From a virus: DNA of 23,477 nucleotides. Where the stretch lies: positions 1 through 23,477 of IMG/VR virus record IMGVR_UViG_3300047550_002438; one strand, 5' to 3'. The number at the start of each line of letters is the position of its first letter. Position 1 is the stretch's first letter. This document shows positions 3,567 to 23,164 of this stretch, piece after piece. A program made the translations under genes and the position numbers. Below the pieces are notes generated by a model, which made no database searches, had not been told where the DNA came from, and was given only the letters and a program-made list of their open reading frames with translations.

Positions 3567-5216
3567 ATGGAACAGTTTAAGCGGTTTTCACAGCCCAAAG
3601 GCTCTACCGAGCCAACGAAGCCTCTACCGTTTTCGGAGGGGCGTTATGGCTTTGGTGCGGAATTTACCCTGACCCACCGCGTCAAGGGCACAGACTACAA
3701 GATTGGTGATCGGTTTACCTATATTTCACAATCTGATGCTGCTGCACACAACCCGTATATTTTGAAAATTGGTAAGGGTTTGGGCGAGTACTGCTTTGCT
3801 GATCCCAAAGGACGAGCGGTAATCCTGTCTGCTGATGTGGGCGTGGTGGATACCCTGTTTGAGTGGGTGGAACCACAGCCCCAAACTGTGGTGTTGAGCG
3901 AAGGCGAAGAGTTTGTTCCGCCACCGCCACCGCCCGTATTCATTACTGAGCAGCAGTTCACCGAGTTCCGAAAGGGCTTGGCTACTGTGCTTTCAGAAAT
4001 TGCGGCTATTGTTCCTCAACAAGGCGAGCGTGGCGGTCGCGGTGAAAAGGGCGAAAAAGGTGATCGTGGCGAGCGTGGAGCAGACGGACAAAACGGTGAA
4101 CGCGGCGAGCGGGGAGAGGACGGCAAGGATGGAGAGCGTGGAGAGCGTGGAGAGCAGGGAGACAAGGGCGACAAAGGCGATACAGGTGATCGCGGGGAGA
4201 AGGGAGAACAGGGTGAAAAAGGCGAACAAGGACAAAAAGGCGAAACAGGCGAGCGTGGTGAAAAGGGCGAGAAAGGTGATCGCGGCGAGATTGGCCCTCG
4301 TGGAGCGGTCGGTGCGAAAGGTGATAAAGGCGATAGAGGCGAGCGTGGGACTGACGGTAAAGACGGAAAACCCGGCTCGCAAGGAGCGAAAGGCGAGCGG
4401 GGAGAGAAAGGCGAACGCGGAGAAGCGGGCCCGCAAGGCAAGACAGGCAAAGCAGGCGTAAAGGGAGCAAAGGGTGACAAGGGCGACAGCGGACTGGTTT
4501 CTGCCAAGTTCCCACTGGTCTACGATGCCGCAGAAAAGTCGGTGTCTATTGACGAGGCTCGCCTAGACGCTATTCTCAAGAAGATCATGGGCGGCGGCAA
4601 GATTTCTGCCGCAGACATGGGCTGGCTTGCGTCCACGGGCGGTGGAGGCAAGGTGGCTGTGTATATCAATGGCTCCAAGATTACGCCTGATGTTCGCACA
4701 TTAGATTTTACTGGTGCGGGTGTTACCGCTACAAAAGTTGGTGGTAAAGTCATCATCAACATAGGCACGAACTTCTACTATCAGCCTGACCCACCCACAA
4801 CAGGAATCACTGTTGGTTCGCGTTGGATGGATTCAGATAATGGACAAGAGTATGTGTATGTGAATGATGGAGACACCAATCAGTGGGTTCAGCCCACAGT
4901 GAATCCGTTCTTTGGCCCAGTGACATACAACACCACAGCCGTTACCATTTCCACATACGAAGCCACCGCACAGGACTACTACATTGGTGTCAGTTACGCG
5001 GGAACACCAACAATTTATTTACCTTCTGCTCCCGGCAGCGGCAGAGAAGTGGTTGTGAAAGACGAATCAGGAAACGCAGGAGCAGCCAACAGGTATATCA
5101 CTGTGCGTGGTGCAAGTGGATCATCGGAAACCATTGACAATCAGGCATCTGCGGTTTTGAACCTAAATAATGCAGGTGTTCATTTCATATACAGAGGTGG
5201 ATGGAGAATCATATGA
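3567..5216 (+). CDS. Collagen-repeat fibre/adhesin structural protein
   Basis: A 549-residue protein in modules. Residues 1-115 form a globular N-terminal domain, then comes a PPPPPP hinge (118-123), a short helical segment at 128-148 that could set the trimer register, and 53 uninterrupted Gly-X-Y triplets at 153-311 (DNA 4023-4499). A linker and beta-rich C-terminal region follow, including a GSRWMDSDNGQEYVYVNDG segment (417-435) and a terminal domain ending YRGGWRII. Phage collagen-like proteins are trimeric fibre shafts carrying a distal host-binding domain; that role is inferred here from architecture and the fibre genes downstream. The repeat is rich in GER, GEK and GDK and nearly lacks proline. 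Which phage substructure it belongs to is not known. Confidence 0.85.
   Translation: MEQFKRFSQPKGSTEPTKPLPFSEGRYGFGAEFTLTHRVKGTDYKIGDRFTYISQSDAAAHNPYILKIGKGLGEYCFADPKGRAVILSADVGVVDTLFEWVEPQPQTVVLSEGEEFVPPPPPPVFITEQQFTEFRKGLATVLSEIAAIVPQQGERGGRGEKGEKGDRGERGADGQNGERGERGEDGKDGERGERGEQGDKGDKGDTGDRGEKGEQGEKGEQGQKGETGERGEKGEKGDRGEIGPRGAVGAKGDKGDRGERGTDGKDGKPGSQGAKGERGEKGERGEAGPQGKTGKAGVKGAKGDKGDSGLVSAKFPLVYDAAEKSVSIDEARLDAILKKIMGGGKISAADMGWLASTGGGGKVAVYINGSKITPDVRTLDFTGAGVTATKVGGKVIINIGTNFYYQPDPPTTGITVGSRWMDSDNGQEYVYVNDGDTNQWVQPTVNPFFGPVTYNTTAVTISTYEATAQDYYIGVSYAGTPTIYLPSAPGSGREVVVKDESGNAGAANRYITVRGASGSSETIDNQASAVLNLNNAGVHFIYRGGWRII
4023..4499 (+). repeat. Collagen-type Gly-X-Y coding repeat, 53 triplets
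   Basis: The reading frame has glycine at every third codon for 53 consecutive triplets with no interruption. At DNA level the unit is a degenerate 9-bp pattern (GGN-GAR-CGN/AAR), so the region is prone to slippage and recombination. Long antisense open frames here are by-products of the repeat. Confidence 0.95.
5162..5169 (+). promoter_or_regulatory. Late-promoter-like box CCTAAATA
   Basis: CCTAAATA resembles the T4-type late promoter TATAAATA recognised by a gp55-like sigma factor. With T4 geometry, transcription would begin near 5175, about 38 nt before the ATG at 5213. It lies inside the last codons of the collagen gene. The same box occurs upstream of several other genes in this window. 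Confidence 0.4.
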
Positions 5217-9755: not shown

Positions 9756-9841
9756 ACTAAAAATTCAAATCAATATTTGATCGCCTGTGAACCGCACGGT
9801 AGGGGCTACATACTCTACCAACCCTAACAATGGAGGCAAGT
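9756..9841 (+). other. Leader of the ribonucleotide reductase gene with weak hairpin
   Basis: An 86-bp gap with no ORF. It holds the short inverted repeat GGTAG...CTACC (12-nt loop) and, at the end, GGAGG (9832-9836), which sets the start of the next gene at 9842. It is too short for a cobalamin riboswitch and shows no T run, so it is neither a clear terminator nor a known regulator. Confidence 0.3.
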
Positions 9842-11764
9842 ATGAGCAAGAGTCTTCCCACTCAGTATCAGTCGTTTATTCACCTTTCAAGATATTCTCG
9901 GTGGCTTGAGAGTGAAGGCAGACGCGAAACTTGGGAAGAAACTGTGGATCGCTACTTCCGTTTCTTTGACGGGCACTGGAGTGATCGCGGCGTAAAGATT
10001 TCAAAAGCAACACGCGAAGAACTGCGTGAAGCCATTCTCAATCTGGAAATCATGCCGTCCATGCGTTCACTAATGACCGCAGGCGAAGCACTACAGCGTG
10101 ACAATACCGCAGGCTACAACTGCTCGTATGTGGCAGTCAACAAGGTGCGAGCGTTTGACGAAATCCTGTATGTGCTTATGTGTGGCACAGGCGTGGGCTT
10201 CTCTGTGGAGCGGCAGTATGTGGAGAAACTGCCCACCATTGCAGAGCAGTTCACCAACTCTGATACGGTAATCGTGGTCAAGGACTCCAAGGAAGGTTGG
10301 GCAAAGGCGTATCGTGAACTAGTGTCCCTGCTTATTGGTGGACAGGTTCCACAATGGGACTTGAGCAAGATTCGTCCCGCTGGTGCTCGCCTCAAGACAT
10401 TTGGTGGACGGGCTAGTGGCCCTCGTCCACTGGAAGAACTGTTCCGTTTCACCGTTGACACCTTCAAGCGAGCAGCAGGACGCAAACTCACTTCAATGGA
10501 GTGCCACGATGTGATCTGCAAGGTAGCCGAAGTGGTCGTGGTGGGCGGTGTGCGTCGTTCTGCTCTTATCTCCCTGTCCAACCTTACCGACGAGCGTATG
10601 CGTGAAGCCAAGACAGGGCAGTGGTGGATTGAAAACCCACAGCGAGCACTGGCTAACAATTCGGTGGCGTACAAGGAGAAGCCCGAGATCGGCACATTCA
10701 TGGAAGAGTGGGTGTCCCTGTACAAAAGCAAGAGTGGTGAGCGTGGCATTTTCAACCGCCAAGCCGCACAGAAGACTGTGGAAAAGTTGGGCGAGCGTCG
10801 TGACCCATCCTACGAGTTCGGCACCAATCCGTGCTCCGAGATTATTCTACGCGACAAGGAGTTCTGCAACTTGAGCGAAGTGATTGTTCGTGCAGACGAC
10901 ACTCGGGACAGTCTGCTACGCAAGGTGCGTCTTGCTGCGGTGCTTGGCACATGGCAGGCTAGTCTGACCCACTTCCCGTATCTGTCTAGTGATTGGAAAA
11001 AGAACTGTGAGGAAGAAGCACTGCTGGGTGTGTCGCTCACGGGCATTTTGGACAATCCCCTGCTACGCAAGCCCAACAAGGCACTAGAAGGGCTGCTCGC
11101 AGAAATGCGTGAAGCAGCGGTGGCTACCAACAAGGAGTGGGCAAAGCGGATCGGCATCAATCCTGCTGCGGCTATTACTTGTGTCAAGCCTAGCGGCACA
11201 GTTTCCCAATTGACGGACTCTGCTAGCGGTATTCACGCTCGTCACAACGAATACTATATCCGCACCGTTCGTGCTGACCGCAAAGACCCCCTGTGCCAGT
11301 TCATGTTGGACAAGGGCTTTCCCGCAGAGCCGTGTGCCATGCGTCCTGACCACACAATGGTGTTCTCGTTCCCCATGAAGGCTGTGGGTTCTGTGACCCG
11401 CAACGACATGACTGCAATTGAGCACCTTGAGTTGTGGCTCGCATATCAGCGGAACTGGTGCGAACACAAGCCCAGCATTACCGTGACTGTGCGTGAGCAC
11501 GAGTGGATGGAAGTGGGTGCGTGGGTGTACGCTCACTTTGACGAGATCAGCGGTATTTCGTTCCTGCCGCACTCCGACCACTCGTACAAGCAGGCTCCGT
11601 ATCAGGACTGCACCAAGGAGCAGTACGAAGCGGCTCTTGCAGCCATGCCAAAGGGCGTGGATTGGAGCGAGTTGACCAATTACGAAAAGGAAGACAAGAC
11701 CGTTGGGGTTCAAACATTCTCGTGCACTGGCGACAAGTGCGAGATTGTTGACCTTACTACATAA
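9842..11764 (+). CDS. nrdJ: Ribonucleotide reductase, class II adenosylcobalamin-type, monomeric
   Basis: Reduces ribonucleotides to deoxyribonucleotides for phage DNA synthesis. The 640-residue protein shows the monomeric class II (Lactobacillus RTPR-like) pattern: GYNCSYV with C94, MCGTGVGFSVERQYV (113-127), NPCSEI (329-334) with active-site N, C331 and E333, FCNLSEV with C342, CVKPSGTVSQLTDSASGIH (447-465), and a C-terminal CTGDKC pair (628, 633) for thioredoxin-type re-reduction. It is shorter than the roughly 740-residue Lactobacillus enzyme. The ATG at 9842 is chosen over 9830 because GGAGG lies 5 nt upstream of it. Use of this enzyme implies cobalamin in the infected cell. Confidence 0.93.
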   Translation: MSKSLPTQYQSFIHLSRYSRWLESEGRRETWEETVDRYFRFFDGHWSDRGVKISKATREELREAILNLEIMPSMRSLMTAGEALQRDNTAGYNCSYVAVNKVRAFDEILYVLMCGTGVGFSVERQYVEKLPTIAEQFTNSDTVIVVKDSKEGWAKAYRELVSLLIGGQVPQWDLSKIRPAGARLKTFGGRASGPRPLEELFRFTVDTFKRAAGRKLTSMECHDVICKVAEVVVVGGVRRSALISLSNLTDERMREAKTGQWWIENPQRALANNSVAYKEKPEIGTFMEEWVSLYKSKSGERGIFNRQAAQKTVEKLGERRDPSYEFGTNPCSEIILRDKEFCNLSEVIVRADDTRDSLLRKVRLAAVLGTWQASLTHFPYLSSDWKKNCEEEALLGVSLTGILDNPLLRKPNKALEGLLAEMREAAVATNKEWAKRIGINPAAAITCVKPSGTVSQLTDSASGIHARHNEYYIRTVRADRKDPLCQFMLDKGFPAEPCAMRPDHTMVFSFPMKAVGSVTRNDMTAIEHLELWLAYQRNWCEHKPSITVTVREHEWMEVGAWVYAHFDEISGISFLPHSDHSYKQAPYQDCTKEQYEAALAAMPKGVDWSELTNYEKEDKTVGVQTFSCTGDKCEIVDLTT

Positions 11765-11836: not shown

Positions 11837-11895
11837 ACCACAAACCTTCAATAAAATTGAACATTTTTGTTTTGGTGAGTGGGCTAGATATTTGT

Positions 11896-12666
11896 ATGCA
11901 GAGAGCGGGATTCACATCTCTTCTGCTAGCCCTCACACTACTCTTCGGGGCATGTGAAGAGGTATACCCGCCTCAAATATCCCAATCAACACCATCAGGG
12001 GAACCCATCACAACTCTACCGTGGTTCATGGAGGGGTTCTCCCTGATGGACGAATACACCGAAGACCTTGCTGTTGGACGGTTAGTCACCGACAAAGGCG
12101 AGGAAATCGGATCAGCAGTTCTAATCGCTCCGAGCGTGATCCTGACCGCAGGGCACTGTATGCAGGACGGCGATATTGCTGAATTTGTAACAGGGTGCGA
12201 GCGGTATAAGATTGCCGCTTACAAGTTGCACCCGCTGTTCAAGGTGCAGCAACACATTTTTATGGACTTGGCGGTTGCCGTATTGGATCGCCCGTGCTGT
12301 GTGGAACCTGTTCGCTTTCTCAACACCGAAACCAATCGTTACGAACAGGGCGAGCCGCTAACTGTGATTGGTTTTGGTGGAGGCTACAAACGCCACAGTC
12401 ACCCTGAAGTGTTTACCTACTACGGGACGCTGATTGAAGACCCCACCGCGTTCAAGTTCCTGCCGTTGGAAGGCACCGTATACTTTGGTGATTCAGGCGG
12501 AGCAGTACTGGACGGAAAAGGCGTTCTCGTGGGGATTGTGTCTGCGTTGGGCTACAGTAACGGGCACATTTACGAGAACTCTGCAACACGATTAGACTTG
12601 GCATCCGATTGGGTAAAAAACACAACACTAGAACTTTCTGGTGTTCCGCTGGAGGTGGCTCCGTGA
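11896..12666 (+). CDS. Secreted trypsin-like serine protease, probable lipoprotein
   Basis: From ATG 11896 the protein is 256 residues. Residues 1-20 form a lipoprotein-type signal peptide (MQRAG, hydrophobic core, LFGAC with the lipidation Cys at 20). The chymotrypsin-fold catalytic triad is complete: His in VILTAGHCM, Asp in FMDLAVAVLD and Ser in YFGDSGGAV. The product should be exported and membrane-anchored in the periplasm. In-frame TTG 11857 and GTG 11875 are possible but would spoil the signal peptide, and no start has a good Shine-Dalgarno. It follows a strong terminator, so it needs its own promoter; TAAAAT at 11852-11857 is a weak -10 candidate. Proteases of this type are unusual in T4-like genomes, and its target is unknown. 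Confidence 0.88.
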   Translation: MQRAGFTSLLLALTLLFGACEEVYPPQISQSTPSGEPITTLPWFMEGFSLMDEYTEDLAVGRLVTDKGEEIGSAVLIAPSVILTAGHCMQDGDIAEFVTGCERYKIAAYKLHPLFKVQQHIFMDLAVAVLDRPCCVEPVRFLNTETNRYEQGEPLTVIGFGGGYKRHSHPEVFTYYGTLIEDPTAFKFLPLEGTVYFGDSGGAVLDGKGVLVGIVSALGYSNGHIYENSATRLDLASDWVKNTTLELSGVPLEVAP

Positions 12667-17027: not shown

Positions 17028-17210
17028 TTATTTTTTAAGTGCTTGCTTTTTCTTGAACTTGTTCTGCTTTTCTTTGGGTGACAAGTCGGTGTCGGTAATA
17101 TTTGAACCTGGAACAGGCGATTGTATTTCCACACCCTGCCCAATAAAGATGTCCTCAAACACTAGGGGTTTGGACGGGCGGAGGCGGATGTACTCCCAAA
17201 AGCCTTTCAC
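17028..17210 (-). CDS. Small basic hypothetical protein (60 aa)
   Basis: Starts at GTG 17210, overlapping the upstream stop as GTGA, so translation is coupled. The N-terminus FWEYIRLRPSKPLVFEDIF is followed by a polar stretch and a lysine-rich tail ending KKKQALKK. No transmembrane segment or known motif. Its basic C-terminus and position in the virion-type cluster suggest a structural or DNA-contacting accessory, without further evidence. Confidence 0.65.
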   Translation of the reverse strand: MKGFWEYIRLRPSKPLVFEDIFIGQGVEIQSPVPGSNITDTDLSPKEKQNKFKKKQALKK

Positions 17211-18883
17211 TTGCCCTCGTATTTGGCTATTGGACGGGGAGAACCAACCTTTTTTCCGTCCTGCACCTTTTGGGTCAGGATGGTTTTCTTGGTCTTGGCT
17301 TCCTGCACTGGCTTCTTCTTGGCACGAAGCAGGGCAAAGTCCTGTGAGTCAAGACGCTTGTTCTTGTTCACATCCAGTTTCTTCTGTCCGCCAACCAGTT
17401 CTTCGCTCACGCCTGTAGCACGCTTGATGCCCTTGACGGCATTCGCTTGCTGCTTGCCTGTGAGGGAAGCGTAGTTCTTGGAGGAGCCGTACATCATGGA
17501 TGAGAGTTGTGAGCCACGCTTGGCAACATATGCGTCTCGTGTCTTCTTGCTCAACTCGTCAATCTGCTCGGCGGCTTCGGCAACACGCACCTGATCCTTG
17601 CCTGCTTTTCCAGCGGCTCGCTTGGCAGCAATCACATCCAGCCGCTTTTTGTGGGCTTCCAGTTCGCGTCCCTTGTCAAAGGTGCCTGCTGCAACTCGCT
17701 TGGCTTTGCTGGCTTCCACCTTTTCACGCTGCTTGTAGTACGCATCACGCATTTGCTGCTTTCGTTCAGGATTGTTTACGCCACGAGAACCGATTCGTGC
17801 CCTGTCGTATGCGTATCCCATACGGGCTAGTTTGGCGGCTCCTGCTTCGGTAATCTCTTCGGTTTCTTCCTTGACTGCTGGCTTGGCTTTGCCGTAGCGT
17901 TCACCTTTCCATTTTGCCCAAGCGTTTGACGAAGACGCATAAGTGTCTTTGGTCTTGGGTTTGGCAGGGGCTACTGCTACTTTTTCTTCAATCTGTTCGG
18001 TTTCTTCCTTGACAGGCTTGCCCTTTCGCTTCACGATCTTGCCACCGCGACCGTACAGATACGGCGACTCGTACTCTTTTGTGTCACGCTTGAGCAGACG
18101 GACAAGTTTACGCTCTTGCTTGTCTTCTTGCTTGCTTGCACGAGACGCAACTGTGCCTGTTTTTGTCATTCGGGTTTCGTAAGCACGCTGGGCAGAAGCG
18201 TCTGCTTTATCAATCTTACGCTTCATCTCACGCTCACGAGCAGGAGTTTGGATGTCTTCAGCCACTTCCACGCTCTCTGCAACAGGAGCAGCGGGAGTGA
18301 GTTTAGCAGTCACCACATACAGCGACTCGGGAGTGAGTTCCACATCCACATGCAAATTGAGTTGGGTGTAGCCGCCTGTGGGGTTAGCCTTGCCGTCAAA
18401 ACGAATCTGCCCTGTGAGTGCGTCGTAGCCGTCAACGCGACCAAACTGCACCACAGGAATATCGTAGGAGCCAACGCCGCCGTCCCATGAACGGGGCTTC
18501 CAATCAAAGTCTAGTTGCACCACATTGAGACGCACCTTCATCTTGAGGAACGCTTCATTGGGATCAAGGTAAGTGCCCTTGCCAATAGTGGCAAGCATGG
18601 CGTTGATGCCAGCGAGAGCACCCGCAGACTGTAGGTGGTGCAGTCCTGCATCGTCCTTGTGAGCCGAGCGGTTGCCGTAACCTGTTAGAACTTCGCTGTA
18701 CTCGCTCTCGTTGAGAGTGCTACGGAACGCCTTGAATGTCTTGTTTTCTTTCATGTGTTTTGCCTTTGATATCTCAATTGCTGCTAGTTGCTGCTTTGCT
18801 TTGCTTTCGCTACTATGGGTTCCTAATACTTTGGTTCCTGCCTTGTCCGTTACTACAAACTTGTCGCCGCGTTTCTGTATCAT
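17207..18883 (-). CDS. Modular virion-type protein with dockerin-like EF-hand
   Basis: A 558-residue protein in modules. Residues 1-43 are a small N-terminal fold (KFVVTDKAG..VLGTHSS..KAKQQLAAIE) seen at the start of many T4-like phage proteins. Residues 48-195 are globular and beta-rich. About 205-440 is long charged helix with several VKEETE(Q/E)I repeats, and 440-490 is an EQIDELSKKTRDAYVAKR module. A dockerin-like EF-hand loop lies at 504-515 (DVNKNKRLDSQD, calcium ligands D504, N506, N508, D512, D515) followed by FALLR. Helix-rich Lys/Glu proteins of this type often sit in prohead core or internal protein roles; this is inference. ATGA overlap at 18880-18883 and AAGG upstream set the start. 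Confidence 0.75.
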   Translation of the reverse strand: MIQKRGDKFVVTDKAGTKVLGTHSSESKAKQQLAAIEISKAKHMKENKTFKAFRSTLNESEYSEVLTGYGNRSAHKDDAGLHHLQSAGALAGINAMLATIGKGTYLDPNEAFLKMKVRLNVVQLDFDWKPRSWDGGVGSYDIPVVQFGRVDGYDALTGQIRFDGKANPTGGYTQLNLHVDVELTPESLYVVTAKLTPAAPVAESVEVAEDIQTPAREREMKRKIDKADASAQRAYETRMTKTGTVASRASKQEDKQERKLVRLLKRDTKEYESPYLYGRGGKIVKRKGKPVKEETEQIEEKVAVAPAKPKTKDTYASSSNAWAKWKGERYGKAKPAVKEETEEITEAGAAKLARMGYAYDRARIGSRGVNNPERKQQMRDAYYKQREKVEASKAKRVAAGTFDKGRELEAHKKRLDVIAAKRAAGKAGKDQVRVAEAAEQIDELSKKTRDAYVAKRGSQLSSMMYGSSKNYASLTGKQQANAVKGIKRATGVSEELVGGQKKLDVNKNKRLDSQDFALLRAKKKPVQEAKTKKTILTQKVQDGKKVGSPRPIAKYEGK

Positions 18884-19890
18884 GGCATACCTTTTTCAGT
18901 TTTACGCCACTTGGCGTGTTCACGCTTGTTGACTTGGAAAGCACTGCCTTGCTTGTCAGACTTGTTTGCTAGTCCTTTGAGTTCAAGGTAGTTGATTCGT
19001 GAACCACGAGCAGATGCCTTTTTGCGTGCAGCAGGAGAAGAGGCGGGGTCGTTGTGTATTTTTGAAGCCTTCTCCCGTTCACGATCAATCACAGCCTGAC
19101 GAGCAGGAGTAATGGCTTCATCAAGATCGTTTGTAAACTGGAAGAACGACTTGCCCTCGCTCACGCTTTTCCACCCGCCGCCCTTGGAGTTGTACCACTT
19201 GACTGCCCATCCGTTGGCATACGCAGACGGATACACCTTGAACTTGCTCTTGGCAAGACTCTTGGCTTTTGACCACAGGGACGGATTGGTGGGCTTGTTG
19301 GCTTCAAGAATCTCTTGTGCGTCCTCGTGGAGTCCCACCAGTTCAATGGTGTCTTGATCGCCACCGTCAAACGCTTCTTCCACAACATCTTTGCCCATTG
19401 TGTACTTGAAAGCGTTGAACAGAGCAGGACTGCCAGTAATCTTGCCCACCAGTGAGTCCAACATATTAATCATCATTTCGCGGTACACCTTGCCCACGCT
19501 CATCTGCTTCATGTTGCTCTTGGACTTGAGAGCCTTGCGAGCAGCGGTTATTTGTTCTTTGTCCACCAGCCCTTTGCGTAGGAGTATATCCACGCGGCTA
19601 GACTCTGCACTTTCTCCCAACTTTTGGCTAGTAGCAGCAACGGTTTCTGAAGCATCAGCGGCTCCTTTGGTTTTGGTTAGTGACGAGCGAAGAGCGGTGT
19701 ACAGTACACGGTTCTTCAAGATAGTGTCAACCACATCCACCAAAATCTCCTGCATGAGTGTGCGGTAGGCAGGACTCTTGGCGTATCGTTCAGGATCAGA
19801 GAACAGAGTCATGGCACGACGCACATTGTTTTGGGAAACCAGACCAAGACGGAGCAGGGCTTGTAGTTTTGATTTGATAGCGGTGTCCAT
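18880..19890 (-). CDS. Virion-type protein with tandem helical repeat and YPSAYANGW motif
   Basis: Residues about 10-72 and 100-165 of this 336-aa protein are two related helical domains: LLRLGLVSQNNVRRA versus LLRKGLVDKEQITAA, then AYRTLMQEILVDVVD versus VYREMMINMLDSLVG, then LYTALRSSLTK versus LFNAFKYTMGK. A second region carries KVYPSAYANGWAVKWYNS (218-235) with GGGWKSV. This is a motif shared with proteins of many large phages. The C-terminus is basic and contains SRINYLELKGLANKSD. The start has AAGGAA ahead and a CCTAAATA box 34 nt upstream. It overlaps the next gene by ATGA. Role in the virion is inferred from its neighbours, not from a known family. Confidence 0.78.
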   Translation of the reverse strand: MDTAIKSKLQALLRLGLVSQNNVRRAMTLFSDPERYAKSPAYRTLMQEILVDVVDTILKNRVLYTALRSSLTKTKGAADASETVAATSQKLGESAESSRVDILLRKGLVDKEQITAARKALKSKSNMKQMSVGKVYREMMINMLDSLVGKITGSPALFNAFKYTMGKDVVEEAFDGGDQDTIELVGLHEDAQEILEANKPTNPSLWSKAKSLAKSKFKVYPSAYANGWAVKWYNSKGGGWKSVSEGKSFFQFTNDLDEAITPARQAVIDREREKASKIHNDPASSPAARKKASARGSRINYLELKGLANKSDKQGSAFQVNKREHAKWRKTEKGMP

Positions 19891-19937: not shown

Positions 19938-21221
19938 TTACATGCTGCGAACGGGACCGTACACCGATCTGCCGTTCTGAATTCTGTATATTTGAATCTT
20001 GCCGTTTCGCAGGGTCACATAGATTTCCTCGCCGTAACGGATGGCTTGAACCGCATCACCGTCTCCAAAGGTCTGGTACGGCTGGGTGCACGAGCCAATA
20101 TAGAAGTTTACACGCCCGTTTTTCACGGCTACCCATGTGTCTTCGGCTGTGCCTCGTGGGTTTCGTGGGCAAGTGGCTTCCCCAATAGTCTTGTGGCTAG
20201 TCATAGTGGGCTTGTTACCCTTGCCTGCTTTGGGTGACTTGCCTTCCGCTCGTCGCTTTTGACGCACAGCAGCCTTGCGTTCCTTTGGTGACATCTCGCC
20301 CACAGTTTCAGGAGTCTTGCCTACGCGGTGCAAAGGACGGCACTTGGGATACGCACCGCCTTCGCTGGCACTCTTGCGACCGCACGGGGGATACTGCCCT
20401 GTCTTGGGGTCTTTCTTGCCGCCAATGTTGACCCACTTCTGTGCAAACCAGTCGCCAAGGTCTTCGTCAATCTTGCACGGCGGAGTTGGGAATTGGGTGT
20501 TGTGCTTGGAGAACCCACCTGTTTGACCGGGTGTGTCTGCTCGTCGCTTGTGCTTGTCGCTTTCAATAATACTTACGGCAGCGGCGTGATACAGTTCAGA
20601 GAAATCAAAATCTTCTTTTAGTTTTGTACGCATACCCCGTTGCAGTTCATCAAACAGTTTCATAACATCTTCACGAGTTGCAGCAGACGGCATTCCTTTA
20701 GCAAACGATTTCTTGTTATTTTCTGAAACTGCTGCTCGCATTTTGCTGGCACTCATGCCTTGAACGCCTGTGGCTTTGGCATCGCGTTTGCCTGCCATCA
20801 CAAAATCGTAGCGTTTCAGATTGAGCCTGTGCTTGGGTTCAGGATGCTTCATTAGTCTGCGAATGTTGGCTTCTTCGTAGTCTTCGCTGCGGTCTTCTCC
20901 ACCAACAAATACCACATGATCGTATCCCTTTTCAGCCAAAGCGTACAGCATATCAAAAGGTGTTTTGACCTTTTCTGAATTTAAGAAGTTTACTCCCGGA
21001 AAGAGGCGTTTCAACCAATAGTACTTACGAGATGGCGGTAGCGGATTCTTCTTGGGATCGTGACTGCGACTAAAACCAATCGCGTGGTCTGCTCCCATTC
21101 GTTTCGCTACATCTACCACCTTGTTGAAAAGGAGTTGGTGTCCCGAAGTTGGTGGCTGAAAACGACCGAAAGCGACCACTATGGTCTTGCTTCGTCGTGT
21201 ATCTTTTACAGATTTAGCCAC
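19938..21221 (-). CDS. NMNAT-like nucleotidyltransferase fused to DUF5872-like and C-terminal domains
   Basis: A 427-residue multidomain protein. Residues 11-175 match the cytidylyltransferase/NMNAT fold: VVAFGRFQPPTSGHQLL with the TSGH catalytic motif (25-28), VVFVGGEDRS near 103, and GMSASKMRAAV (155-165) equivalent to ISSTKxR. The enzyme should transfer AMP or CMP to a phosphorylated substrate such as NMN. A Cys-containing module follows (LGDWFAQKWVNIGG, PPCGRKS, AYPKCRPLHRV, 255-300) resembling DUF5872, then a basic linker and a beta-rich C-terminal domain (355-427). Start is GTG 21221, preceded by an exceptional Shine-Dalgarno. Such fusions occur in T4-like environmental phages; the substrate is not determined by the sequence. 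Confidence 0.82.
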   Translation of the reverse strand: MAKSVKDTRRSKTIVVAFGRFQPPTSGHQLLFNKVVDVAKRMGADHAIGFSRSHDPKKNPLPPSRKYYWLKRLFPGVNFLNSEKVKTPFDMLYALAEKGYDHVVFVGGEDRSEDYEEANIRRLMKHPEPKHRLNLKRYDFVMAGKRDAKATGVQGMSASKMRAAVSENNKKSFAKGMPSAATREDVMKLFDELQRGMRTKLKEDFDFSELYHAAAVSIIESDKHKRRADTPGQTGGFSKHNTQFPTPPCKIDEDLGDWFAQKWVNIGGKKDPKTGQYPPCGRKSASEGGAYPKCRPLHRVGKTPETVGEMSPKERKAAVRQKRRAEGKSPKAGKGNKPTMTSHKTIGEATCPRNPRGTAEDTWVAVKNGRVNFYIGSCTQPYQTFGDGDAVQAIRYGEEIYVTLRNGKIQIYRIQNGRSVYGPVRSM

Positions 21222-21224
21222 TTT

Positions 21225-21235
21225 GGATCACCTCC
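21225..21235 (-). promoter_or_regulatory. Extended ribosome binding site, 11-nt match to 16S tail
   Basis: Minus-strand GGAGGTGATCC pairs perfectly with the 3' end of bacterial 16S rRNA (GGATCACCTCC). Its GGAGG core lies 9 nt before the GTG at 21221, offsetting the weak start codon. It is the strongest ribosome site in the window. Confidence 0.85.
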
Positions 21236-21263
21236 CGTAATGCACTTGCGGTACACCAACTCT

Positions 21264-22481
21264 TTACTGTTTCCACGATTTAGAAATCGTGAAGTTAGCC
21301 TTTGAAAACTCAATGCGGTCAACCAATTTGACTGCATCGTTACTCAACCGATCTATGGCAACAAACCCTTCGGGAACTGTTGCCACATACTTGTCGCCCT
21401 TCTGCACGAATGTTCCAAACTCTGTGCTTAAGGTTGCCAATTTTGCTAGCACATGCTTTTTGAGTTGTGCTACACGATTATGTAGTGCAAACAGGCTATT
21501 GATCTGATTGCGGTTGTTACGCACATAATCCAGCGTGGGTGTGGGTGTTTTGGCAGGAATCTTTGACTTTTTAGTTTTACGCTTGGCATCAACCTTTGCA
21601 GACATGAACGCGATTAACTCGTTTGTGTCGCCAAGTTCTCGCCCTGTGCGAATAATGCTGTTGAAATAGGTTTTGATTTCCGCTACAAGTGCAGGATTCT
21701 TGGCAACACCGTTCATTGGGGTTCGCAAAGCAATACCGTCTTTTATGATGGCATCTATCTGTGAAGCAATATTGGTAATCTCGCGTTCGTTGAACAACCC
21801 GTCGCCACGAGAAAATCTGTAGGTGGCGTTGTCGTACCATACCGCTCTGCTTTTGGCTAGCCCTGCAAGCGATGGGTTAAACTTTATTACCTTTAGATCA
21901 CGCATGGTGGTTCCACCGTACTCGGTGTGGAACACAATTCCAATCTTGGCAGAACCAATCCGCTTTCCTAGATGCGACTGGGGATCAATTGCGTATTTAA
22001 TGGTGTTGGGTTGAAATGTAATGTACCGCTTGCCGTCAATGGTTTCCCGTTTCAGAGACTCGCTGTCAAACAGCATGTCCCCTTGCAGGATGCCTGTGAT
22101 GCGTAGCCCCTTTAGATGCTTCAAGGCTAGTTTTAGTTTGGTGTTCAGCCCTTCGCCTTCGTGGTTGCGATCAATGTCGGCTTCGGTGTAGTTAATCTTG
22201 GGTGTCACATTGAACACGCTCTTGGTGCCCACAAAAAACTTGCCGTTCTCGGGATCGGTTCCCACGATTACGGCAGGAGCACCGTCCCACTTGACTGAAA
22301 TATCGTAGGGCACGGTGTCGTTGCCGTGTAGCGACTGCACCACACCACGCAGAGAATTCATAGCCTTTGAAAAGCCTGCAAAACCACCGTTGAAGATTTC
22401 GTCTTCAAGGTGTTCCAAATGCACATTCTTTCCGCCTGTGCTTTTTAGCGATTCCGCAAGGAATGGAATAAATGAATTCAT
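21264..22481 (-). CDS. KxDG-motif protein, possible nucleic-acid ligase-like nucleotidyltransferase
   Basis: From ATG 22481 (405 aa; GTG 22490 adds three residues). It shows SVKWDGAPAVIVG with K64-x-D-G67, the lysine motif I of the covalent nucleotidyltransferase (DNA/RNA ligase, capping enzyme) superfamily. FVGTKSVFN follows, then GILQGDMLFD (130-139, motif III-like), IGIVFHTEYGG (180-190, motif IIIa-like), VPEGFVAIDR with E371-G372 (motif IV-like) and AVKLVDR with K385 (motif V-like). About 180 residues between the last two groups are an unusual insertion. The same family occurs in T4-like phages as an unannotated protein. Ligase-type chemistry is inference from motifs; the next gene is an NMNAT-like enzyme. 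No Shine-Dalgarno is visible. Confidence 0.75.
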   Translation of the reverse strand: MNSFIPFLAESLKSTGGKNVHLEHLEDEIFNGGFAGFSKAMNSLRGVVQSLHGNDTVPYDISVKWDGAPAVIVGTDPENGKFFVGTKSVFNVTPKINYTEADIDRNHEGEGLNTKLKLALKHLKGLRITGILQGDMLFDSESLKRETIDGKRYITFQPNTIKYAIDPQSHLGKRIGSAKIGIVFHTEYGGTTMRDLKVIKFNPSLAGLAKSRAVWYDNATYRFSRGDGLFNEREITNIASQIDAIIKDGIALRTPMNGVAKNPALVAEIKTYFNSIIRTGRELGDTNELIAFMSAKVDAKRKTKKSKIPAKTPTPTLDYVRNNRNQINSLFALHNRVAQLKKHVLAKLATLSTEFGTFVQKGDKYVATVPEGFVAIDRLSNDAVKLVDRIEFSKANFTISKSWKQ

Positions 22482-22495
22482 GGGTTTCACGCCAT

Positions 22496-22503
22496 TATTT
22501 AGG
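22496..22503 (-). promoter_or_regulatory. Late-promoter-like box CCTAAATA (minus)
   Basis: Reads CCTAAATA from 22503 to 22496 and contains the stop codon of the upstream exonuclease gene. Predicted transcript start near 22490 coincides with the GTG of the next frame, leaving at most 9 nt before the ATG at 22481. Confidence 0.45.
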
Positions 22504-23164
22504 CGTGAGTAACCTGTTCAGACTTCCATAGAGAGATGGCGTTTACAAGGGGTTCCACCCAATCACGGGTGGCGGCTTCAAACACTTGGCATTCACCTGT
22601 GCTGCTCACGCCCATGATAATGGTGATGCGATCCACAGGCTGTCCTGTCATGTCTTGCCACATGAGAGCGTAGGCAGCACCTTGAGTAAAATAATCGCTC
22701 ACCGCGTCTTCGCTTTTGGGATTATTTGAAGTCTTGAAGTCAATCACAGACAGGGTGCCGTTGTATTCCGCAATACAATCGGTGCGTCCTGCCAAGCCTA
22801 CCCGCTTAGACCACAGGGGCACTTCAATGGCACGAACATTGTCAATACAGTCCAGTGCGGGCTGCATGGTGTGGAAAATGTCTAGTTCTTCTGTGCCTGC
22901 GGCTTCTTGCAGCGAACTCTCAAAACGGTTGTGCAAGTAGTCCTCTATCAAGGCGTGAACACGAGTGCCACGAGACAGGATTCGCTTGGACTCTTCGGGA
23001 TTCTCTCGCCGCCATTTTGCGAAGAACTTTCGCTTTGCCCATCCTGTAACAGTAGTCACAGACGGGAAAACTCCGTCTGGAGTTGTATACTGCCGCGAGC
23101 CGTTTGCCTCGGTGGCTGTTATATCCCCCGAAGTATTCACAAAAGCATGACGAAAGGATTTCAT
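22499..23164 (-). CDS. PD-(D/E)XK exonuclease, MGME1/RecB-nuclease type
   Basis: A 221-residue nuclease with the RecB-family motif order: FPSVTTVTGWAKRKF near the N-terminus, GTRVHALIEDYL (H70, E74), EVPLWS (E114), GLAGRTDCIA with D128, SVIDFKTSN with D142 and K144, and QGAAYALMW (Q161, Y165). The D...DxK core and the QxxxY motif are complete, so it should cut DNA ends in a metal-dependent way. The N-terminal pattern matches the single-strand exonuclease MGME1 and similar T4-like phage enzymes. The start lies 2 nt after the preceding stop with no strong Shine-Dalgarno, so translation is probably coupled. It likely acts in recombination or DNA end processing. Confidence 0.88.
   Translation of the reverse strand: MKSFRHAFVNTSGDITATEANGSRQYTTPDGVFPSVTTVTGWAKRKFFAKWRRENPEESKRILSRGTRVHALIEDYLHNRFESSLQEAAGTEELDIFHTMQPALDCIDNVRAIEVPLWSKRVGLAGRTDCIAEYNGTLSVIDFKTSNNPKSEDAVSDYFTQGAAYALMWQDMTGQPVDRITIIMGVSSTGECQVFEAATRDWVEPLVNAISLWKSEQVTHA

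Follow-up and report, generated by a model that had tools for sequence, protein, structure and literature searches.

A gene at 21264–22490 (minus strand) of a 23,477-nucleotide virus record, referred to here as the window, encodes a 408-residue protein of the Pfam family DUF6267 that we predict, from a structural model, structural matches and conserved residues, to be a ligase-type covalent nucleotidyltransferase. Our best explanation, to which we assign a probability of about one half, is that DUF6267 proteins are unrecognised enzymes of this type which seal nucleic acid, most likely RNA, and that an NMNAT-like protein encoded by the following gene takes part in the same process or complex. 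On the predictions made here, DUF6267 would constitute a new, divergent family within a known superfamily, the covalent nucleotidyltransferases, which includes ligases and capping enzymes.

The two minus-strand genes are separated by 42 nt and lie at the positions given in an earlier note made from the sequence. The DUF6267 gene starts with GTG, and its product matches PF19782, described as a “family of unknown function”, over its whole length (E = 1.6e-98), as well as phrog_455. The NMNAT-like gene (19938–21221, minus strand) encodes a 427-residue, multi-domain product matching phrog_3041 (E = 8.9e-45) and phrog_395; its GTG start is preceded by a good Shine–Dalgarno sequence, GGGAGGTGATC. 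The phrog_455 profile covers both genes, its positions 20–341 corresponding to the DUF6267 gene and 418–619 to the NMNAT-like gene. Upstream, a PD-(D/E)XK exonuclease gene (22499–23164, minus strand; PF12705, E = 4.5e-10; phrog_298, E = 4.8e-54) ends 8 nt before DUF6267 and is probably in the same operon; a homologue of it adjoins DUF6267 in most close relatives. Downstream of the pair lie genes for two basic, low-complexity proteins (18880–19890 and 17207–18883, both minus strand), the first matching part of DUF5872 and the second the start of phrog_3684; the Pfam and PHROG matches of these two genes yield no useful function. In syn9 and S-SZBM1, too, the pair is followed by low-complexity genes of a similar kind.

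The window also encodes a DnaB-type helicase, a primase, ThyX and a ribonucleotide reductase, a gene content consistent with a relative of T4-like cyanophages. The reductase (9830–11764, plus strand) matches the B12-dependent RNR insertion domain (E = 8.7e-8). Also present on the plus strand are a collagen-repeat tail-fibre-like protein (3567–5216; Pfam Collagen, E = 5.9e-28) and a 269-residue trypsin-like serine protease (11857–12666; Pfam Trypsin, E = 8.1e-13), the latter unusual for a T4-like phage.

Relatives of DUF6267 were found by tblastn in 465 phage records, ~97% of which are named Synechococcus phage, Cyanophage or Prochlorococcus phage; the remainder comprise Methylophilales, Pelagibacter, Stenotrophomonas and Vibrio phages and others. 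The gene neighbourhood in relatives includes helicase, UvsX, MazG and PD-(D/E)XK nuclease genes. In annotated genomes the product is a “hypothetical protein” of T4-like gene cluster 71, and the name DUF6267 was not found in the literature searched.

The AlphaFold model of DUF6267, computed from a 30-sequence alignment, has a mean pLDDT of 83.9 and a pTM of 0.79. Foldseek matches of this model to the PDB were weak (best E = 0.27, not significant alone), with capping enzymes and ligases recurring among them. VIA-align was run on these candidates, and all 50 of the entries it listed are covalent nucleotidyltransferases. The Naegleria RNA ligase came first (Z = 9.0), followed by REL1 (7.8), T4 Rnl2 and fungal Trl1 (both 7.7), T4 Rnl1 (7.6), archaeal RNA ligases (~7) and DNA ligases (~6), RNA ligases thus ranking above DNA ligases among the matches listed. 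The best Z barely exceeds the background quoted for the tool, and values of such size can be background; chance hardly accounts for the list, however, since it contains not one unrelated entry. The ligase reading of the fold holds because the listed entries are uniformly covalent nucleotidyltransferases and because the catalytic-type residues of DUF6267 are invariant. The ligase-type core that the earlier note had suggested from motifs, and that a predicted fold lacking such a core would have refuted, is therefore supported by the predicted fold and the structural matches as well as by the motif residues themselves.

Conservation was assessed across 47 DUF6267 members, ~28–85% identical to the window protein; ten of these are short (297–324 residues), and the metaG-MbCM1 member is represented by residues 1–310 of a fusion protein. 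Invariant in all 47 are K67, D69, G70, K90, Q136, D138, N162, H188, T189, Y191, N277, K344, E374, G375, V377, K388, R392, F395 and N399, while H24, H27, E29 and D30 are conserved in 46. Invariance over this range of identity places the motifs beyond chance.

Motif I reads K67-W-D-G70 (22281–22292, minus strand, as are all features of both proteins), the KxDG form, in which K67 is the predicted nucleotide-accepting lysine. K90 (22221–22223) is an invariant basic residue within GTKSVFN. The motif III-like Q136-G-D138 (22077–22085) would provide the acidic residue, as Asp where the Naegleria ligase has the usual Glu, an equivalence suggested by the order of the motifs. H188-T-x-Y191 (21918–21929) occupies the motif IIIa position within a predicted strand (residues 183–192). 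Motif IV, E374-G-F-V377 (21360–21371), has the expected Glu-Gly pair without the usual lysine of this motif, and motif V, K388-L-V-D-R392 (21315–21329), supplies its lysine. The earlier note had counted from an ATG three codons later, so that its K64, 371–372 and 385 are K67, E374-G375 and K388 of the full reading frame; the GD pair it described is present as G137-D138, but its 135–136 is off by one, the pair falling at 134–135 in its own numbering.

An insertion before motif IV, put at roughly 180 residues in the same note, is real but spans ~118 (residues 235–352; 21435–21788), all of it predicted helical. It is much reduced in the short members, which retain N277 and K344. The chain stops ~16 residues past motif V, where the model has only a short helix, and it consequently lacks a C-terminal OB-fold; a partner might conceivably supply one in trans. 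No accessory nucleic-acid-binding domain of any known ligase family was found in DUF6267.

Pfam ligase models matched none of the DUF6267 members, with one exception: PF09511 (T4 RNA ligase 1 family) matched one of 30 members at E = 0.039. PF09414 (T4 RNA ligase 2 family) gave no match in the members scanned. With PF01068, neither the window protein nor any of ten further members scanned singly gave a match even at an E cut-off of 1, and the 25 families listed for the DUF6267 alignment do not include it. Profile–profile comparison of DUF6267, with and without the insertion, against T4-Rnl2 and DNA-ligase alignments returned nothing, as did the positive control of Rnl2 against DNA ligases. Profile searches of PDB sequences with DUF6267 returned chance matches only. 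Judged on its residues, the family fits a working enzyme which differs from each named ligase family.

In the mechanism we propose, lysyl-AMP would most likely form by attack of K67 on the alpha-phosphate of ATP or another AMP donor; the AMP would then be passed to the 5′-phosphate of a broken nucleic-acid strand, and the 3′-OH would complete the seal. The likeliest substrate would be RNA or a nicked RNA-containing duplex. The helical insertion that separates motif IIIa from motif IV may replace the OB-fold or the known C-terminal ligase domains, and its N277 and K344 probably serve the active site or engage the substrate.

The partner protein comprises an NMNAT-like (HIGH-superfamily) domain (residues 8–205; 20607–21200), a DUF5872 stretch (residues 250–328; 20238–20474; PF19197, E = 2.5e-8, over its cut-off) and a small C-terminal domain (residues 390–426; 19944–20054; phrog_23252, E = 2.7e-5). 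The TSGH and SASKMR motifs noticed earlier are present as T25-S-G-H28 and S157-ASKM-R162. Across 45 NMNAT-like sequences, 16 columns of the domain are invariant, and G27 and H28 of TxGH and S157 and R162 of SxxxxR do not vary, so the protein carries the (H/T)xGH and SxxxxR active-site signature. An NMNAT-like domain, which the earlier note had also read in this gene, is supported by the PHROG matches, where the N-terminal domain is labelled “cytidyltransferase” in both phrog_3041 and phrog_395, and by a weak resemblance to NadR and MJ0541. Scores stay below the curated cut-offs for NMNAT families (24 bits at best, where the cut-off is 397). Given so faint a similarity, and scores far below every NMNAT cut-off, we call the partner NMNAT-like and regard NMNAT itself as unproven. 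The domain also occurs within very large proteins of >1000 residues (loci L039, L045, L031, L186 and L224).

NMNAT-like proteins are present in published cyanophage virion proteomes (PMC9602691, PMC9146016, PMC10665884), although two of these studies caution that they could be carry-over from infected cells. The S-SZBM1 virion study lists the cytidylyltransferase (140) and the product of the next gene (139), which is the low-complexity protein mentioned above; the S-SZBM1 DUF6267 protein (141) was not found in that study's main text or protein table.

The association of the two genes was counted over 90 non-redundant evaluable DUF6267 loci. At 57 of these the NMNAT-like gene lies no more than 1.5 kb after DUF6267, and at 28 the two lie within 100 nt of each other or are fused; the other 33 of the 90 lack the pair within 1.5 kb. 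Two fusions were found. Re-sequenced S-PM2 (LN828717.1, 93485–95260) encodes a single 591-residue DUF6267/NMNAT-like protein, and metaG-MbCM1_189 (JN371769.1; 1846–4032 of the locus examined) is a 728-residue fusion of a short DUF6267 with the NMNAT-like domain, annotated as the ribonucleotide reductase subunit NrdB. The original S-PM2 record (AJ630128.1, 103025–104804) has DUF6267 split over two reading frames, p138 and p139. Strong as the link is, it is not obligatory, since the DUF6267 gene does not sit beside a cytidyltransferase gene in S-CAM7, S-SSM7, S-H38 and ACG-2014f. Conserved adjacency and the two fusions bear out the earlier suggestion of a functional pair; the many members with no partner nearby count against our best explanation. 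As a putative division of labour, the NMNAT-like protein would be another nucleotidylyltransferase working in the process or complex that DUF6267 serves. It may share the DUF6267 substrate, contribute to the same response or, if the donor were NAD+, recycle NMN.

The same link can be read differently, with DUF6267 modifying a small molecule or protein instead of a nucleic-acid end, in a pathway of two enzymes whose other member would be its NMNAT-like neighbour. Frequent adjacency and fusion to what is a small-molecule type of nucleotidylyltransferase would suit such a role, as would the missing nucleic-acid-binding accessory domain, the active-site variants, the unique insertion with its invariant N277 and K344, and the reports of NMNAT-like proteins in virions. 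We consider this possible but on balance unlikely: the members of the superfamily that appear in the PDB list all act on the ends of nucleic acids, the pair has no other pathway enzymes conserved next to it, and nearly all of the records surveyed below are without NadV.

Other ligases were sought genome-wide in 18 DUF6267-bearing records, comprising 11 phage genomes and 7 large contigs; the phages are related, so the 18 amount to few independent events, and the contigs may be incomplete. The positive control, T4, matches PF01068, PF09414 and PF09511. Rnl2-type, Rnl1-type and RtcB ligases were found in none of the 18. PX29, CZ01 and Astolliot, which lack DUF6267, were chosen for having Rnl2 and do not count towards mutual exclusion. 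It is because RNA ligases lead the structural ranking and no other RNA ligases were found that we favour RNA as the substrate.

DNA ligases of the PF01068 type were detected in two of the 18 records only, and NAD-dependent DNA ligase in none of the 13 tested. This scarcity raises the question of whether DUF6267 is the missing replicative DNA ligase, sealing Okazaki fragments or recombination nicks in place of T4 gene 30. A review found no T4 g30 homologues in cyanomyoviruses, unless distant ones were missed, and 16 of the 18 records lack a PF01068 ligase; the position of DUF6267 near helicase, UvsX and PD-(D/E)XK nuclease genes would also be in keeping with such a role. The same review notes that the host ligase could serve these phages (PMC2984593). 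DLP_6 (KU682439.2, 126448–127011) and S-CRM01 (HQ615693.1, 142801–143331) carry a PF01068 ligase alongside DUF6267, by which a strict pattern of DUF6267 replacing DNA ligase is rejected. The OB-fold of DNA ligases is missing from the model, and the structural ranking among the matches listed places RNA ligases first. We therefore hold a replicative role to be doubtful.

The earlier note had further envisaged a phage NAD pathway. A survey reported NadV in all phages that carry NadM (PMC9503650), whereas 17 of the 18 DUF6267-bearing records lack NadV (PF04095), DLP_6 being its only carrier. A canonical phage NAD-salvage reading is accordingly not supported, and the interpretation given in that note is, overall, partly supported. 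The absence of NadV does fit another arrangement, in which DUF6267 would be a nucleic-acid ligase fuelled by NAD+ and the partner, using ATP, would turn the released NMN back into NAD+, since a self-recycling ligase would need no NadV. We regard this as a long shot. If true, a pair of this kind, fused in some phages, would work on when host NAD+ is drained.

That DUF6267 is an inactive, degenerate ligase fold with a structural or scaffold role and an unrelated neighbour is very improbable: the deviating motif III and IV residues, the 33 loci lacking the pair within 1.5 kb and the four phages whose DUF6267 gene has no adjacent cytidyltransferase gene could be read in this way, but a dead enzyme does not fit catalytic-type residues that stay invariant while overall identity drops to ~28%, and the two fusions and the failure to find the protein in the S-SZBM1 virion main text or protein table also argue against it.

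Cyanomyoviruses are abundant marine viruses. On the model, a ligase-type enzyme appears to have been hidden within their shared gene set, and it may explain how viruses without recognisable ligases seal broken nucleic acids. If active, DUF6267 would form a ligase family in which a helical module stands where accessory domains usually do, and it would tie nucleic-acid end repair to an NMNAT-like enzyme reported in virion preparations. The family is of interest for where it is found and because it makes the long-noted ligase gap in cyanophage genomes testable (PMC2984593).

Among known systems, phage NAD salvage (NadV with NadM or NadR) resembles the partner in its GRFxPPTxGH and GxSxxKxR signatures and in the weak NadR/MJ0541 similarity; the partner differs in its distance from every NMNAT cut-off, in the general absence of NadV and in having DUF5872 and a C-terminal piece instead of a Nudix or kinase domain, neither of which was matched in Pfam or PHROG. 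T4 gene 30-type DNA ligases (PF01068) share with DUF6267 the nucleotidyltransferase core, at the lower Z of ~6, and a replication-gene neighbourhood, whereas DUF6267 has neither an OB-fold after motif V nor a PF01068 match. T4 RNA ligase 2 and trypanosome REL1 (PF09414) have the same core at Z = 7.7–7.8, and by eye T4 Rnl2 and DUF6267 are alike in their EGYV/EGFV motif IV and in having K..FS at motif V; set against this, DUF6267 has no PF09414 match, no Rnl2-type C-terminal domain and KxDG in place of KxHG. Human RLIG1 (C12orf29) was not among the 50 structural matches listed, which is no evidence against a relation; it offers a precedent for an uncharacterised protein that proved to conceal a ligase of this fold (PMC9931718, PMC11494293).

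The closest structural match is the Naegleria gruberi RNA ligase (NgrRnl), a eukaryotic nick-sealing enzyme of the Rnl5 group, superposed over 182 residues at 3.7 Å with the Z of 9.0 given above. Identity is ~11%, and NgrRnl has Glu at motif III and no helical insertion of the DUF6267 kind between motifs IIIa and IV; its N-terminal region is without a counterpart in DUF6267, as the match starts only at its residue 143. The two share a KxDG motif I, an acid at motif III, EG at motif IV and a lysine at motif V. The residues named in the titles of the Naegleria mutant structures, K170, D172, E227, E312 and K326, find likely equivalents in K67, D69, D138, E374 and K388 of DUF6267. The gap from motif IV Glu to motif V Lys is the same 14 residues in both proteins, and when the C-terminal ends are aligned, K388 falls within one residue of NgrRnl K326.
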